The notes below the pieces were generated by a model. It was not told the origin of the DNA and made no database searches. It saw only the letters and a program-made list of their open reading frames with translations. From NCBI RefSeq assembly GCF_016803135.1, contig NZ_JAEVFE010000001.1, positions 124,001 to 188,000 on the forward strand: DNA of 64,000 nucleotides. Reading direction: 5' to 3'. Shown here one piece after another: positions 4,441 to 46,593 of this stretch. The DNA is from Altererythrobacter sp. C41. GTDB taxonomy: Bacteria > Pseudomonadota > Alphaproteobacteria > Sphingomonadales > Sphingomonadaceae. Within the stretch, counting starts at the first letter, position 1, and each line of letters starts with the position of its first letter. The translations under genes were made by a program, and so were the position numbers.

Positions 4441-5193
4441 TTATCCTTTCTGGTCGGAAGCGACATAGGTGACTTTGGGGAAGAAGGTGTCGCCGCGGCC
4501 TTCGGGCGTGGTGTCGAGCAGCCCCCAGACCGCATCGGCGAAGTCGAGTCCGCGGTGATCCTGGCCGGGGTCGTCGGGTGCGAAGACCAGTTCGCTACCC
4601 CAGAAATGGCGGATCGCATCGCCATCCTTACGGAAGACGTTGAGCATCGGCTCGTCCCAGTTTTCGTCTTCGCCGTAGCCGCGCTGCTCACGCATCGCCG
4701 GGGTCAACGCTGCCGTATTGCCGAAATAGTGCGCGCTGTAGTCGTTGCCGGCAGTGGAGAGCAGCTGGAGATGGTTCCAGCCCCGCGCATGGGCCCAGGC
4801 GGCGAGCCGTGCGATCGGCGACCGTGCGACGACGTAGAGCGGCGCACGCTGCGGTACATGGCGTGCGGCACCCTCGATGCAGTCCAGCAGATGGGTGCAG
4901 CCGGGGCAGGGGACATCGCGCTCCGGCCCGAACATGTAGCTGTAGATCAGGATCGACGGAAAATCGCCGAACAGCTCCGACATGCGGACCTGCTCGGGCC
5001 GGAAGTGAGCGCCGATCCGCTCGAAGACGTAGTCCTCGGGCACTTCGCCGCCGGGTGGAAGCGCACGGCGCATTTCGGCGACCGCTTCGGTCTGGCGGCG
5101 AAGCGCGATCTCCGCATCGAGCAGCGTGTTGCGCGCCTCGCGATAGGTGGAGCTTTCGTTGGGGAAGTGCATACGGGCGAAATCGGCGCTCAT
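4441..5193 (-). CDS. DUF899 thioredoxin-like protein
   Basis: A 250-residue DUF899 family protein. It has the typical core FGDFPSILIYSYMFG followed by the cysteines of DVPCPGCTHLLDC, then YVVARSPIARLAAWAHARGW and the C-terminal RKDGDAIRHFWGSEL. The fold is thioredoxin-like and the cysteine pair may be redox active, but no reaction is established for the family. A GAGAGGAG ribosome-binding site just upstream of 5193 supports the start. It is fourth from last in the 13-gene block. Confidence 0.85.
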   Translation of the reverse strand: MSADFARMHFPNESSTYREARNTLLDAEIALRRQTEAVAEMRRALPPGGEVPEDYVFERIGAHFRPEQVRMSELFGDFPSILIYSYMFGPERDVPCPGCTHLLDCIEGAARHVPQRAPLYVVARSPIARLAAWAHARGWNHLQLLSTAGNDYSAHYFGNTAALTPAMREQRGYGEDENWDEPMLNVFRKDGDAIRHFWGSELVFAPDDPGQDHRGLDFADAVWGLLDTTPEGRGDTFFPKVTYVASDQKG

Positions 5194-5222
5194 GGCGATC
5201 TCCTCTCTCTTCTCTCCGATCC

Positions 5223-5876
5223 TCAATCCCGGTCCGGCGCGCCGGGCGGGAACCAGGGGCGGTAGGGCCGCGCATCGTCGACGCAGCGGGCGACGGCGGG
5301 GAGAGCGAGCACTTCGGCGCGCAGCGCGGCGAGGCGCGGGCAATCATCGGGAATGCGCTCGACCCAGTCGGCGTAGAACAGCGACGGCGCGGCGGCGCAT
5401 GTTACCAGCGAGACGTGCGGCGGAAGGGTGTTCGCCTCCAGCCAGACCTCCAACCAGCGGTAGACGCGCAGCAGGCCTTCCTTGCCCGCCGCAATCTCGG
5501 CGGGATCAGGCGCTTCCTTGTTTACGAGATAGGCGTTCACCACCCGCTGCATGCTCGCCATGACATAGTTGTCGAACACCCGGTCGAGCATGCGCGTGAC
5601 GGCCGCTTGTGCCGGATCGGACGGAATCAGCGGAGCGGGGCCAGGGTGATGGAGTGCGAGGTGTTCGACGATCGAAGTCGCCTCGATCACCGTTGCGTCG
5701 CCGTCCGCCAGCACTGGGAACTTGCCCGCCGGGTGCGCCTGCTGGACGAACTCGGCATGGTGCGGATGATCGGACCCGACCTCGCGGAATTCGAAATCCG
5801 TCCCGTTCGCGTAGAGCGGAATCAGCGCCTTCCAGGTGTAGGACGAGAACGGATGGCCGTAGAGTGCGAGAGTCAC
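5223..5876 (-). CDS. Glutathione S-transferase family protein
   Basis: A 217-residue GST-fold protein starting LALYGHPFSSYTWKALIPLY, a Ser-type glutathione site, with HPAGKFPVL carrying the cis-Pro and VIEATSIVEHLA the Glu/Ser pair that binds the gamma-glutamyl end. The GTG at 5876 is the start because it overlaps the stop of the upstream GST as GTGA. It forms a coupled pair with that second GST, from a different subfamily, inside the detoxification block. Confidence 0.9.
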   Translation of the reverse strand: MTLALYGHPFSSYTWKALIPLYANGTDFEFREVGSDHPHHAEFVQQAHPAGKFPVLADGDATVIEATSIVEHLALHHPGPAPLIPSDPAQAAVTRMLDRVFDNYVMASMQRVVNAYLVNKEAPDPAEIAAGKEGLLRVYRWLEVWLEANTLPPHVSLVTCAAAPSLFYADWVERIPDDCPRLAALRAEVLALPAVARCVDDARPYRPWFPPGAPDRD

Positions 5877-7856: not shown

Positions 7857-8573
7857 TCAGGCGTCGATCATCGGGCGGAAGCCGCCCCAGATCATCCGCT
7901 TCCCATCGAACGGCATCTCGCCCTGGGGCTGCATGTCGGGATCGGACATCATGGCGTCCCAGGCCTTGTCGCGGGTCGGCTTGTCGGGCCATTCGACGTA
8001 GGAGAAGATCACACCTTCGCCGTCCTGCGCCTTCACCGCGCGGCGGTAGTCGGTGATCTTCCCGTCGGGCACGTCGTCGCCCCAGGCCTCGACCACGCGG
8101 ACGGCGCCCCGTTCGATGAACTTGCCGGCGACGTTCTGCGCCAGCTCGCGGTAGGCTTCCTTCTTGTCCGCGGGGACGGGAACGAGATAGCCGTCGGTAT
8201 AACCCGGCGTCCCTTGCCCGCGCTCGTCCACGATCGCGTCGAACCCGCCGAAGATCATGCGCTTGCCGTCGAAGGGCATGGTCTCGCCCATGGCCTCCAT
8301 CCGCTCGTCGCTCATCATCTTCTCGTTGGCGGCGTCGCGGGTCGCCTTGTCCGGGTATTCGAACCACGAGAACACGACCGTCTCGTCATCCTTCGCCTGG
8401 ACCGCGCCGTAGAAATCGGTCACTTCGCCCTTGGGCACGTCGTCGCCCCAGGTCTCGACCATGCGGGCCGCGCCGAACTCGCGGAACAGCGGCGCCGCAT
8501 CCTCGGCGTGCTTGCGATAGGCATCCTTGTTCGCGGTCGGAACCGCTGCGACAAATCCTTCCAGATAGGTCAT
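7857..8573 (-). CDS. Tandem DUF1428 (dimeric alpha-beta barrel) protein
   Basis: A 238-residue protein made of two copies of DUF1428, a ferredoxin-like dimeric alpha-beta barrel domain that normally stands alone at about 115 residues. Copy one runs from about residue 2 and closes with PFDGKRMIFGGF; copy two starts near residue 125 (TDGYLVPVPADKKEAYREL) and closes with PFDGKRMIWGGF. Both also carry VE(T/A)WGDDVP. The fused pair would mimic the usual homodimer in one chain. The family's function is unknown; its position in the detoxification block suggests small-molecule binding or degradation. Confidence 0.88.
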   Translation of the reverse strand: MTYLEGFVAAVPTANKDAYRKHAEDAAPLFREFGAARMVETWGDDVPKGEVTDFYGAVQAKDDETVVFSWFEYPDKATRDAANEKMMSDERMEAMGETMPFDGKRMIFGGFDAIVDERGQGTPGYTDGYLVPVPADKKEAYRELAQNVAGKFIERGAVRVVEAWGDDVPDGKITDYRRAVKAQDGEGVIFSYVEWPDKPTRDKAWDAMMSDPDMQPQGEMPFDGKRMIWGGFRPMIDA

Positions 8574-8587
8574 CGTCTCTCTCCTTG

Positions 8588-9004
8588 TCAGCTTTGCTTC
8601 ACCGGCGCGCCGATGGACCAGCGATGTCCGAATGGATCGGTCACCTGTCCGTACCGGTCGCCCCAGAACTGGTCGGCGAGCGGCATCGTTTCGGTTGCTC
8701 CGGCCTTCAACGCGCGCGAGAACCATGCGTCCGCATCGTCGACGTGAAGATGGAGCGTTACCGCGGCCGGCTTGCCCGCGGCCTCGCCATATTCGGGGAA
8801 GTCGTCGTTCAGCATCACGGAACCGCCGTTGATGTGGAGGTGGGCGTGCGTGATCCGCTCGCCATCCTCCGCCATATGCGGTTCCATGACCTGCTCGGCG
8901 CCGAAGGCCGCCTTGTAGAAATCGATGGCTTCCTTGGCCCGCTTTTCGCCGATCGTCAGATGCGGGGTGACGCCTGCGAGCGTTTGGTGCTGGCCATTAC
9001 TCAT
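8588..9004 (-). CDS. VOC/PhnB-like glyoxalase-fold protein
   Basis: A 138-residue single-domain VOC protein: VTPHLTIGEKRAKEAIDFYKAAFGAE at the start, ITHAHLHINGGSVMLNDDFPE in the middle and QVTDPFGHRWSIGAPVK at the end. The spaced His and Glu residues fit the PhnB/YjdN type. It follows the GST at 9021 by 16 bp and precedes the DUF1428 gene by 14 bp, so all are in one transcription unit. The substrate is not known. Confidence 0.9.
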   Translation of the reverse strand: MSNGQHQTLAGVTPHLTIGEKRAKEAIDFYKAAFGAEQVMEPHMAEDGERITHAHLHINGGSVMLNDDFPEYGEAAGKPAAVTLHLHVDDADAWFSRALKAGATETMPLADQFWGDRYGQVTDPFGHRWSIGAPVKQS

Positions 9005-15514: not shown

Positions 15515-15540
15515 GTAATCCCAGCGAAAGCTGGGATTAC
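15515..15540. terminator. Family A palindrome between convergent genes, likely bidirectional terminator
   Basis: A perfect 11-bp stem, GTAATCCCAGC with its complement, closed by a GAAA tetraloop. It lies between the convergent PBP and thioesterase genes and belongs to the dispersed CCCAGC...GCTGGG palindrome family. The stable stem suits transcription termination in both directions. Confidence 0.7.
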
Positions 15541-15552
15541 GAAGTGGTGATG

Positions 15553-15990
15553 CTAGCCCCCGCTGCCGTCCTCCGGCGCCGCCATCAGGACGTTCATCAC
15601 GGCCGTCGCGACCGGCCGCGAGCGGTCGTCCTGCCATGCCTCGACTTCGATATTCGCGTTGCGCCGCCCCAGGCGTAGCACTCGGCCGCGCGCGTAAGTC
15701 GGGCGGCTCTTTGCCGCGCTCAGGAATTGAACCGTAACGTTGATCGGCTTCAGCCGCTGCTCGCGTCCCGCGCGGGCAAGTTCGACACGCAAGGCCGCGT
15801 AGCCGGCGTTCTCGAGCAATCCGCTGGTGGCGCCGCCATGGAAGACCGTCGGCCGCCCCTCGACGATCTTGCCGAACGGTACGACGAGGACCGGAGAGCC
15901 GCCGTCGATCGAATCGACTGTGATCCCGAGCGAGCGGGCATAGGCGGGCAGTTCCCGCTCCACAGCGGCGAGAAGGTCAGCGTCGCTCAT
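15553..15990 (-). CDS. PaaI-like hot-dog thioesterase
   Basis: A 145-residue hot-dog-fold protein of the PaaI/YbgC-like acyl-CoA thioesterase group: PTVFHGGATSGLLENAGYAAL in the central-helix region, then KPINVTVQFLSAAKSRPTYARGRVLRLGRRNANIEVEAW across the sheet. The HGG...N segment replaces the HGG(A)...D catalytic pattern of PaaI. It overlaps the end of the upstream thioesterase gene by 14 bp, suggesting the two form a heteromer or act on related substrates. Confidence 0.87.
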   Translation of the reverse strand: MSDADLLAAVERELPAYARSLGITVDSIDGGSPVLVVPFGKIVEGRPTVFHGGATSGLLENAGYAALRVELARAGREQRLKPINVTVQFLSAAKSRPTYARGRVLRLGRRNANIEVEAWQDDRSRPVATAVMNVLMAAPEDGSGG

Positions 15991-16429
15991 CGCGGCGTCC
16001 TCCGATCGACATGAACACCCCGGCGATGTGCGCCACGGGATCGTCCGGATCGCCGTCATGCGCGATGCCGCGGACGAACGCCGCGGAGCGCGTCAGGCGG
16101 TAGCACTCGGACCGTCCATTGACCGCCGCACCCTTGCGCGCCGGCCGCATGTAATCGACCCGGAGATCGAGCGTTGCGATCGCGAGGAATTCGCTCGTCC
16201 TGGTCCAGATCGCCATGCCGGACGCCATGTCCATCAGGCTGACGATCGGCCCGGTGGCGAGGATGCCGCTGCCGGTCTCCCCCACCAGATCCTCGCGCCA
16301 TGGAAGGGCAAGTTCCACCCAGTCCGCGCCGTGCGCGACATAGTGCATGCCGAGCCATCCGGGGTGGCCGTGTTGCAGCATGAAGGCGGCTGCGGTGGCG
16401 GGATCGAAGGGCGGCAGGTCGCTGGCCAT
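15977..16429 (-). CDS. PaaI-like hot-dog thioesterase
   Basis: A 150-residue hot-dog protein. It has the domain pattern HYVAHGADWVELALPW, then GSGILATGPIVSLMDMASGMAIW in the central helix and ATLDLRVDYMRPARKGAAV in the dimer strand. The central helix carries Asp in the position used by PaaI-type thioesterases. It overlaps the second thioesterase gene and diverges from the small-peptide gene at 16547 across 117 bp. It probably hydrolyses an acyl- or aryl-CoA thioester in the cytosol. Confidence 0.88.
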   Translation of the reverse strand: MASDLPPFDPATAAAFMLQHGHPGWLGMHYVAHGADWVELALPWREDLVGETGSGILATGPIVSLMDMASGMAIWTRTSEFLAIATLDLRVDYMRPARKGAAVNGRSECYRLTRSAAFVRGIAHDGDPDDPVAHIAGVFMSIGGRRDERR

Positions 16430-16546
16430 GGCAGCGCTCTACGGCAGCGGCGCCGCATTTCAATGTTCTAATTTCCCGCAGCCGGGTCGGCGCGCCATCC
16501 GTTCGATGCGGGCGGAATCGCGTTCGCGTCATCAGGGGATGCCACT

Positions 16547-16714
16547 GTGAACTTTCCGAAAATCGACCTTTCGTCGCTGCCGGCCCTGGACAAAGCCGCG
16601 GGCATGTTCGGCAGTCTGTCCGACGCGGCCACCGCTGCCTCCGACGACCGCGTGGTGATCATCATGGTCTATCTCTACGAGACGGTATCGGAACCGACGC
16701 TGGGGCTCTTCTGA
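16547..16714 (+). CDS. 55-residue peptide, possible RiPP-type precursor
   Basis: A short gene with a GTG start preceded by an AGGGGA ribosome-binding site about 7 bases upstream and no in-frame ATG before it. The product has an N-terminal part rich in Leu/Ser/Ala (FPKIDLSSLPALDKAAGMFG), a middle Asp-Asp-Arg, and a hydrophobic C-terminus with VVIIMVYLYETVSEPTLGLF. No signal peptide or cysteine is seen. It ends 10 bp before a gene of unknown function that is itself coupled to a paralogue, so a precursor peptide with two modifying proteins is one reading. That role is inference. Confidence 0.6.
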   Translation: MNFPKIDLSSLPALDKAAGMFGSLSDAATAASDDRVVIIMVYLYETVSEPTLGLF

Positions 16715-16724
16715 GGGCGCGCCG

Positions 16725-17696
16725 ATGCGGATCGATTCGGCGACCGCAGCGCTGCGGAGCGACGGCGCTCTGCAGCGCGACGCGCAGGCGCGGCTCGAGC
16801 GCGTCAAGGCCGCATGGCTGGCGGAGCCCGGCACGGCGACGGTGTTGCAGGCCCTCGAGCGCTACGGAGAGGGCGCGGCGCTAGCCGACTGCGCACCGCT
16901 CGGGGCGCTCGTATCGGAGATCGGGGTTGCGCGCAGGCTCATAGGACGGCTGATGGGCGGGATGATCGGGGGGCTGCGCGAGAACCCGTTCGGCCATGTC
17001 CCGTTCCGGCATCAGTATGTCGATGGCCTCGCCATGCTCCAGCTCGCGCAGTCGGGCAGGGCGACGCTCTCGCTGCTGCAGTACGCTCCGCCTGAGAGCG
17101 GGACCGCACCGGATTCGGTATGCTTCACCGATGGGGAGCGGCATGAGATCTGCCTGGCGGGCGCGGCGCAGGCGCGGCGCGTGACAGTTACGGGCGGTCG
17201 TCCGGACAAGGCGGAGCTGGCCTGCAGCGGCATCCGCATCGCTGCTGGCTCGTGCCTCTCCTTTTCCGGATTGCAGGAGACGAAGCTTGTCGACCGGGTC
17301 GAGGGAAGACTGGTCATGCTGCGCCTTTCGCGTCCGGCCGCCACGCCGTTGCCGAGCGTGGAATACCGTCTCGCTGACGGCGCACTGCTGCACCGGGCGG
17401 CAGGGGAATGCCGCGAGAGCCGGCAGGAGCTGATGCTGGCGGTGCTCGGCGCGATGCAACGCCGCGATGCCGCGCCCGCGATCGCTCGCCTGGCCCGGAC
17501 GGGCAGCGAGAGCCTGCGTTGGCAGGCGCTGCGCGAATGCCTCGCGCTCGACAGCGCGGAAGGCTTCCGGCAGTTGTCAGGCATCTCGCGCGACGCGGCC
17601 GATCCGCTGCACGGTCCCGCCGGAGCGCTGCGCCGTGATCTGCTCGCCCGATACCCGCAACTTGCGCGCGCGGAGTGTGAACCGTGCCTCGCCTAA
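16725..17696 (+). CDS. Uncharacterised protein, degenerate paralogue of its downstream neighbour
   Basis: A 323-residue cytosolic protein not recognised as any named family. Its central part (about 90-200) aligns by eye with the cupin-like region of the next gene: VPFRHQYVDGLAML matches IPHDHNFDFLTIGY, and the later GIRIAAGSCLSFSGLQETKLVD matches the region carrying the third His, but here the His residues are missing. The C-terminal 100 residues are helical and Ala/Arg-rich, also shared with the neighbour. It may therefore be a non-catalytic partner or peptide-binding subunit. It overlaps the next gene by 13 bp. Confidence 0.75.
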   Translation: MRIDSATAALRSDGALQRDAQARLERVKAAWLAEPGTATVLQALERYGEGAALADCAPLGALVSEIGVARRLIGRLMGGMIGGLRENPFGHVPFRHQYVDGLAMLQLAQSGRATLSLLQYAPPESGTAPDSVCFTDGERHEICLAGAAQARRVTVTGGRPDKAELACSGIRIAAGSCLSFSGLQETKLVDRVEGRLVMLRLSRPAATPLPSVEYRLADGALLHRAAGECRESRQELMLAVLGAMQRRDAAPAIARLARTGSESLRWQALRECLALDSAEGFRQLSGISRDAADPLHGPAGALRRDLLARYPQLARAECEPCLA

Positions 17697-18589
17697 TCGA
17701 AGGGGAGGACCTTGCCTCCTGCTCGCTCGAAGAGGCGGTTCACGCGATCGACGCGGCCGGTTTCGAGCCACGCGAGGAAGATAGCCTGATGCATGCGGCC
17801 CGGTGGCTCCGCCGCCTCGGCAACAACGCGACCTTTCTCGGCGACCGCATCGTGACGCAACTCGTCGCCGGTCCTGCGCGTCAGGAGGCGGAGAGTGCCT
17901 ACGGGCCGCAGGCGATCGTACTTTCGGGCATGCGGAACGGCTTCTTCTTGCGCGCGAACGTATGGCCGTCGGAGCGCGATCACGCTGTCCGCACGAGCGG
18001 GGCTCGCAGCTTCGTCTACGGCATCCCGCACGATCACAACTTCGATTTCCTGACCATCGGCTACTTTGGCCCCGGTTATCGCAGCGACTACTACGAATAC
18101 GACTACGCAGCGGTTGCGGGTCGATGCGGCGAGACGGCGGGTCTACAGTTCGTGGAGCGCAGTGCTCTCAGCCCTGGCAAGCTGACGCATTACCGTGCGC
18201 ACCGCGACGTTCACCGCCAGTTGCCGCCCGAAAGCCTATCCGTGTCACTCAACGTGGTCGCTGCGGAGCCGTCCGCAGGCTGGTTCGATCAGTACGGTTT
18301 CGACGTCGAGGCGGACACCGTAACAGGCGTGCTCAATCCGACTTCGACCGAGGTATTCCTGCGCCTGGCCGTGGGAATGGGCGGGGCCGAGGCGCTGGAT
18401 TTGGCCGAGCGGTTCGGCAGGACCCACCCCAGCGACCGCCTCCGCCTCGCGTGTTTCGAAGCGAAAGCGACACTGGCGGCGGTGCCGGCAAACGCCGACG
18501 CCATCTGGCGCGAGGCTGAACTCTGCGGCAGCCGCTTGGTCGCCGAAGAAGCGCGTTCGCGCCGCCGGATGCTGTCGTTGACGGCGTAG
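17684..18589 (+). CDS. Uncharacterised cupin-like protein with conserved histidines
   Basis: A 301-residue protein starting at GTG, with GGAG eight bases upstream. Residues about 110-195 look like a cupin of the cysteine-dioxygenase type: IPHDHNFDFLTIGYFGPGY gives a His-x-His pair, and SPGKLTHYRAHRDVHRQLPPE gives the later His. This could hold Fe(II) and support an oxygenase reaction. The C-terminal helical part resembles that of the upstream gene. With the preceding peptide and paralogue it forms a compact three-gene unit. No substrate can be named. Confidence 0.75.
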   Translation: MPRLIEGEDLASCSLEEAVHAIDAAGFEPREEDSLMHAARWLRRLGNNATFLGDRIVTQLVAGPARQEAESAYGPQAIVLSGMRNGFFLRANVWPSERDHAVRTSGARSFVYGIPHDHNFDFLTIGYFGPGYRSDYYEYDYAAVAGRCGETAGLQFVERSALSPGKLTHYRAHRDVHRQLPPESLSVSLNVVAAEPSAGWFDQYGFDVEADTVTGVLNPTSTEVFLRLAVGMGGAEALDLAERFGRTHPSDRLRLACFEAKATLAAVPANADAIWREAELCGSRLVAEEARSRRRMLSLTA

Positions 18590-18615: not shown

Positions 18616-18694
18616 GTCATCCCAACGAAAGCTGGGATCGGGTGCCGCACAGATCGAGCTCAGGGCAAGCGATCCCAGCTTTCGCTGGGATGAC
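18616..18694. repeat. Family A inverted doublet (REPIN-like)
   Basis: Two inverted copies of the CCCAGC/GCTGGG unit, at 18616-18638 and 18671-18694, separated by about 32 bp and able to fold as two small hairpins or one long stem. It sits in the 228-bp gap between the cupin-like gene and otsB. No other feature was recognised in that gap except the otsB upstream region. Confidence 0.85.
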
Positions 18695-46030: not shown

Positions 46031-46106
46031 CGATTCCCAGCTTTCGCTGAGATGGCAGATATCCTTTTGCTCCCCTAGCCGTCATCCCAGCGAAAGCTGG
46101 GATCGC
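46031..46106. repeat. Family A inverted doublet upstream of the GIY-YIG gene
   Basis: A decayed copy at 46031-46056 and an intact copy at 46081-46106 of the CCCAGC(GAAA)GCTGGG unit in inverted orientation. It lies between pgi and the GIY-YIG gene. A second doublet follows the same gene at 46508-46593, so the gene is framed by the repeats. Confidence 0.85.
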
Positions 46107-46507: not shown

Positions 46508-46593
46508 CTCCCAGCGAAGGCTGGGATCGGGTCGAACGCGGTCGCAACCGTCGCCCAGGGACGGAGCGATCCCAGCTTTCGCTGGGATGACGG
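46508..46593. repeat. Family A inverted doublet downstream of the GIY-YIG gene
   Basis: Inverted copies at 46508-46529 and 46566-46593 with an approximately 36-bp spacer. The pair mirrors the doublet at 46031-46106 on the other side of the GIY-YIG gene and resembles the doublet at 18616-18694, including a similar GATCGGGT spacer start. Confidence 0.85.

Follow-up and report, generated by a model that had tools for sequence, protein, structure and literature searches.

What is a 55-residue peptide gene doing directly in front of two coupled larger genes, here called A and B, in Altererythrobacter sp. C41? A sequence-only reading had taken the three genes for a candidate RiPP-like or signaling system, in which an active cupin-like enzyme and its degenerate paralogue modify the short peptide. 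We followed up this proposal in the window (the whole stretch of 64,000 nucleotides analyzed) and in relatives of the locus. The operon is most likely an uncharacterized route to chemically modified peptides. We favor a RiPP-like peptide-modification cassette, at a probability of about two in three, in which protein A would help dock the leader of the peptide and protein B would oxidize its core at a non-thiol position.

The layout described in the sequence-only reading (a 55-codon gene with a ribosome-binding site, a 10-bp gap, and a 13-bp overlap between the two larger genes) was found in full (Table 1). The sequence GAGGG ahead of gene A overlaps the stop codon of the peptide gene, and GGAG lies upstream of gene B. 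Across loci, the median gap between the peptide gene and A is 15 nt, and the A/B overlap is usually 13 nt. Neither larger protein reached a Pfam or NCBIfam cut-off, in keeping with their description as members of unknown families, and the same held for the peptide; the 80 B homologues, searched as a set, gave no matches to these libraries apart from a weak HEAT_2. Neither the window proteins nor the B-homologue set matched the Pfam CDO_I and PCO_ADO models, the NCBIfam thiol-dioxygenase models, or any RiPP model in Pfam or NCBIfam. The last result excludes the known classes held in these two libraries, not the RiPP concept in general.

Table 1. Features of the cassette and its 3' flank, in window coordinates
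Feature	Position	Strand	Remarks
Ribosome-binding site of the peptide gene, AGGGGA	16534..16539	+	Read directly from the sequence
Peptide gene, 55 aa, GTG start	16547..16714	+	Conserved, selected, and sole profile match in its own genome
Peptide parts in order: leader MNFPKIDLSSLPALDKAAGMFGS, linker, core DDRVVIIMVYLYE, variable tail	16547..16714	+	
Gene A, 323 aa, ATG start	16725..17696	+	Predicted CDO-type cupin fold without metal ligands; C-terminal HEAT-like helices
Gene B, 301 aa, GTG start	17684..18589	+	Predicted thiol-dioxygenase-fold cupin with 3-His site; C-terminal HEAT-like helices
B His-x-His codons, H116-D117-H118	18029..18037	+	Predicted metal ligands; H116 and H118 invariant (80/80)
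B H177 codon	18212..18214	+	Predicted third metal ligand; invariant (80/80 and all 22 divergent members)
REP-like elements, inverted pair directly 3' of B	18621..18689	.	Context, not specific to the system

The immediate surroundings of the cassette are a penicillin-binding protein gene, two divergent 4HBT thioesterase genes, and genes for a trehalose phosphatase, a GH15 protein, and a GT20 protein. The two thioesterase genes (positions 15553 to 16429) overlap each other, are divergent from the cassette, and flank about half of the loci. An obligate link to the pair was considered and rejected: many genomes that lack the cassette have the pair, and several cassette-bearing genomes do not. Since it is distributed independently of the cassette, it is a marker of the chromosomal site only. 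A REP-like palindrome (CCCAGCGAAAGCTGGG) occurs in seven copies in the window, most of them paired in inverted orientation (sites at 15520, 18621-18689, 46036-46101, and 46510-46586); shuffling gave an expectation of 0. The pair just after B folds strongly (z of -5.1) and is a possible 3' hairpin.

The short frame itself is kept across the 80 aligned homologues, so the check on its conservation in relatives came out in its favor. Compared with five relatives, the peptide has a dN/dS of 0.12 to 0.29, similar to that of B, which indicates purifying selection. A peptide profile matched a single site in each of 40 relatives, at the cassette, and gave no match in genomes lacking B, save one (G023). 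That genome has lost A and B at the syntenic position, which is recognizable by the penicillin-binding protein, two thioesterases, and RuvX; the peptide leader has eroded, while the core YSDDRIVILMAYVYE can still be read. The relic lies on the minus strand at positions 8262 to 8606 of the locus (L192), between the thioesterase pair and ruvX. By these sequence measures, the short ORF is a genuine gene under selection, beyond what chance would give. The very short spacing and the overlapping start and stop signals would also suit a translated leader (uORF or attenuator) that merely couples the translation of A and B. We regard this as very improbable, as it is the amino acid sequence, and not position alone, that is under purifying selection, and in some gammaproteobacteria the peptide is encoded downstream of B (L188, and L190 with two such peptides).

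One scan of species genomes yielded 104 relatives of B, 80 of which were kept for alignment. In practically all of them, a peptide gene lies directly upstream of A. It was absent only at L055, where the contig starts within A, and at L090, whose contig is rearranged or chimeric. Loci missed by BLAST carry a diverged peptide, such as MKYPSIDINSLPDLEAMTGPLINGNSEDILVVIATYFWE in Sphingorhabdus. The peptide-A-B order, whose recurrence had been named as a check, is present in nearly all of about 100 Sphingomonadaceae loci, with a conserved C-terminal core in the peptide, and the same order was found scattered in two gammaproteobacterial families. A and B almost never occur without a peptide gene nearby; the exceptions are L090 and the copy on a Vibrio plasmid (L025), in which no peptide was recognized.

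B is present in 97 of 298 sampled Sphingomonadales genomes, all in one family among the matches listed, and in 15 of 398 sampled genomes of the phylum, 2 of these 15 outside Sphingomonadaceae. Further sampling of the two outside families recovered it in 6 of 148 and 6 of 149 genomes. From gene content and a named Alteromonas plasmid, these families are probably gammaproteobacterial, Alteromonas- and Xanthomonas-like. The nearest relatives of the window's genome are of the Pelagerythrobacter type, and in Sphingomonadaceae the chromosomal location of the cassette is stable. Besides the Vibrio plasmid, the Alteromonas plasmid pASTE61-200 carries a relative; viral contigs and phages, when searched for relatives, gave none. 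In a small B tree, one gammaproteobacterial family has a copy that groups with that of the Alteromonas plasmid and copies that group with L150 from Sphingomonadaceae; these groupings are consistent with horizontal transfer. One genome (G821) has three A-B pairs. Some B matches showed apparent in-frame stops; in the one checked (G388/L158), this was the terminal stop, and the gene is not a pseudogene.

The sequence-only reading had also assigned a His-x-His motif and a later His to B, in a cysteine-dioxygenase-like layout. These residues (H116, H118, and H177) are invariant, down to members at about 24% identity and including the 22 divergent members, in the surroundings HDHNFDFLTxGYFGPGY and DVHxQ. 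An AlphaFold model of B, built from the homologue alignment, has a pLDDT of 92.6, and its best fold matches are thiol dioxygenases (8vni and 4tlf with a Z score of 13.2; CDO, PCO, and ADO with 11 to 12.6). By sequence register, the positions of CDO His155 and Tyr157 would be occupied in B by Asn and by Met or Val. B is presumed to be an active enzyme. The model of A (pLDDT, 94.6), searched independently, also retrieved the same family first (4qm9 with a Z score of 11.2; CDO with about 10.8). A CDO-type cupin fold is therefore predicted with high confidence for both proteins, and both models end in C-terminal helices. Pfam HEAT_2 was detected in distant A proteins (E values of 1.4e-8 and 7.4e-7), with the A protein of the window below threshold.

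The claimed paralogy of A and B was borne out only in part. Because both match the CDO family by predicted fold, it is upheld at that level, but the two did not align by sequence: BLASTP gave an E value of 0.058 over 54 aa and HHalign a probability of 0.7%, so neither method supports homology at the sequence level. A sequence search of solved structures with the A and B profiles returned nothing relevant. The loss of the metal-site residues from A held up, in that no conserved His was found in the assigned register, which was anchored on F134 and G175 by sequence and not by superposition of the models; the region has a His at position 140 in 33 of 80 proteins and is otherwise mostly aromatic. 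A leader-binding RRE (PqqD-like) domain had no Pfam match and was absent from the fold matches listed for A. A may stand in place of an RRE for leader binding.

The peptides have the leader/core organization of a RiPP precursor, and the encoded short precursor adjoins the putative modifying genes. The alignment runs from a conserved leader, LPKIDLxSLPDLDxxTGxFGS, through a variable linker to a hydrophobic core rich in V and I. In the core, D34 is kept in 78 of 80 peptides, position 44 is aromatic or His in all 80, and position 45 is E or D in 77, with V, I, M, or A between. Outside the main clade, a V/I-rich C-terminal stretch is common to the peptides (e.g., ELGIVITIAVVIL, LDPVFVIPIIII, and GVFGVIVVAVVIFL). 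An ORF with a ribosome-binding site and a hydrophobic tail precedes A in 14 of 22 distant cassettes compared with 3 of 291 control genes, a ratio that is indicative, as the hydrophobicity rule was chosen after some peptides had been seen and one of the 14 (L148) listed another ORF first. The core of L185, GIPPFIGYQEPPIEEL, departs from the hydrophobic rule. Hydrophobic, V/I-rich cores would also suit a membrane-active toxin or signal that A and B protect against or sequester without modifying it (as toxin/immunity or signal/sensor pairs), and near some copies there are exporter genes and ABC genes resembling those for lantibiotic protection. This explanation is improbable. The complete metal site and its surrounding residues are kept in all B members, as for an enzyme, and in the models A and B are compact cupin-plus-helix proteins. 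The anti-phage defense models of PADLOC gave no match.

In gammaproteobacterial relatives, the cassette has different surroundings. Those of L024 and L181/L182 are next to Yip1, HlyD, ABC, and MacB_PCD genes, and MacAB-type genes are found at L187 and L188. A second ABC system resembling drrA/lantibiotic-protection subunits is present at L182 and L187, and an ABC-2 pair is present at L024. In L181/L182, about 15 kb of one genome, a single Yip1-HlyD-ABC-MacB exporter is surrounded by three A-B pairs and their separate small peptide ORFs, and a SohB protease gene adjoins one of the pairs. The precursors vary as well: L185 and L186 have a double-glycine leader (MKELTLEDAEFVSGGG), the Sphingomonadaceae copy L150 has a GA-type leader, L187 encodes two precursor-like peptides, and L189 has a tandem core (STLFIFAARK...STAFIFAAQR). 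Upstream of the L185 cassette, several tandem small ORFs (MKLKLNKKKLKNLSKD...GG...CARYCASDIMDC; positions 4693 to 5779, minus strand) lie beside an NRPS gene and look like a separate family of precursor peptides with GG leaders.

These observations bear on the main alternative, that A and B form a small-molecule dioxygenase (for a thiol or another substrate), with the peptide as an obligate small subunit, lid, or regulator. The predicted fold and 3-His site of B are those of thiol dioxygenases, there is one peptide per genome with a core conserved across genera, and the Sphingomonadaceae cassettes examined have no linked protease or exporter; beside the window cassette there is neither an exporter nor a peptidase, and the Yip1/HlyD/ABC/MacB_PCD set is absent. 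We nevertheless consider this alternative unlikely overall, although it may hold for Sphingomonadaceae. A subunit does not explain the gammaproteobacterial variants: paralogous peptides, tandem cores, GG leaders, and flanking export ABCs make little sense for it, and between clades the peptide sequence differs strongly, whereas B is conserved. The linkage to exporters in relatives, together with their GG-type leaders, paralogous precursors, and tandem cores, instead suggests that the peptide is the substrate of A and B, as originally proposed, and so does the decay of the leader where A and B have been deleted.

Under the favored reading of a RiPP-like modification cassette, the short peptide would be a precursor whose conserved leader is acidic and contains proline and whose C-terminal core is hydrophobic and rich in V and I. 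B would be a mononuclear-iron (3-His) oxygenase on a CDO fold and A a catalytically dead cousin of that fold; the two, each with C-terminal HEAT-like helices, may form a complex. The leader would be gripped by A, the HEAT helices, or both, and B would use O2 to oxidize the core at a non-thiol position. The leader would then be removed and the product exported, at least in gammaproteobacteria, by an ABC transporter of the MacAB/YknWXYZ type. Since only 7 of the 80 peptides contain Cys, the peptide cannot in general be modified by thiol oxidation, although B may still act on a small thiol; hydroxylation, desaturation, or a similar change within the hydrophobic core is the most likely reaction. 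Several points speak against this reading. In Sphingomonadaceae, the cassette has no linked protease or exporter, its chromosomal location is stable, and its core is conserved and not hypervariable, an unusual pattern for a weapon-type RiPP. A thiol-dioxygenase fold classically suggests a thiol substrate, yet 73 of the 80 peptides lack Cys. In addition, the L185 core does not follow the hydrophobic rule, and the Vibrio plasmid copy has no recognized peptide.

The cassette shares with RiPP systems built on an MNIO enzyme and a partner protein a short precursor with a conserved leader, a metalloenzyme with a non-catalytic partner (both predicted here), a compact operon, and exporters in some clades. 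MNIOs are TIM-barrel multinuclear iron proteins, whereas here a CDO-fold cupin is predicted as the enzyme, with a dead version of that fold as its partner. The thiol dioxygenases (cysteine, 3-mercaptopropionate, and mercaptosuccinate dioxygenases, ADO, and plant cysteine oxidases) are the best fold match (Z scores of 11 to 13 for B and 10 to 11 for A) and have the same 3-His site as B. PCO and ADO act on protein N termini. The cassette differs from this group in lacking a Pfam or NCBIfam match and in having an extra C-terminal HEAT-like domain, an obligate degenerate partner, and a peptide gene whose products mostly lack Cys. Streptococcal SHP short hydrophobic peptide pheromones likewise have an acidic residue followed by a V/I-rich stretch, a likeness confined to core composition; they belong to another phylum, and no Rgg-type receptor was seen next to the cassette. 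In RiPPs, iron enzymes are already established to oxidize peptides at non-thiol positions, for example, in a biphenomycin-like pathway, whose "cupin-like" PbsQ/BpmG is described as JmjC related (PMC12257519). The Bacillus pump YknWXYZ, which has the same composition as the exporters at L024 and L181/L182 (Yip1, HlyD, ABC ATPase, and MacB-type permease), expels the SDP peptide toxin (PMC4887032), but neither the window nor the Sphingomonadaceae cassettes examined contain such exporters.

RiPPs, thiol dioxygenases, and MacAB-type exporters are already known separately. In the open-licence literature, we found no description of a system in which a CDO-fold enzyme is accompanied by a dead partner of that fold and by a dedicated hydrophobic peptide. 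It seems an evenly balanced proposition that the cassette represents a so far undescribed RiPP class, whose CDO-fold iron enzyme works with a dead paralogue to oxidize a hydrophobic peptide at non-thiol positions, aliphatic or aromatic. The class would occupy a stable chromosomal locus in about one-third of sampled Sphingomonadales genomes and would be shared by horizontal transfer with gammaproteobacteria of the Alteromonas and Xanthomonas type. Should modification of the peptide be demonstrated, the cassette would define a new RiPP class, and peptide natural-product biosynthesis would gain an enzyme fold, namely, a thiol-dioxygenase scaffold turned, together with a pseudoenzyme, to a non-thiol peptide. 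The cassette is carried by 97 of 298 sampled Sphingomonadales genomes, and its protein families have no Pfam or NCBIfam model, so abundant marine and freshwater bacteria may make a common peptide product that has escaped annotation.
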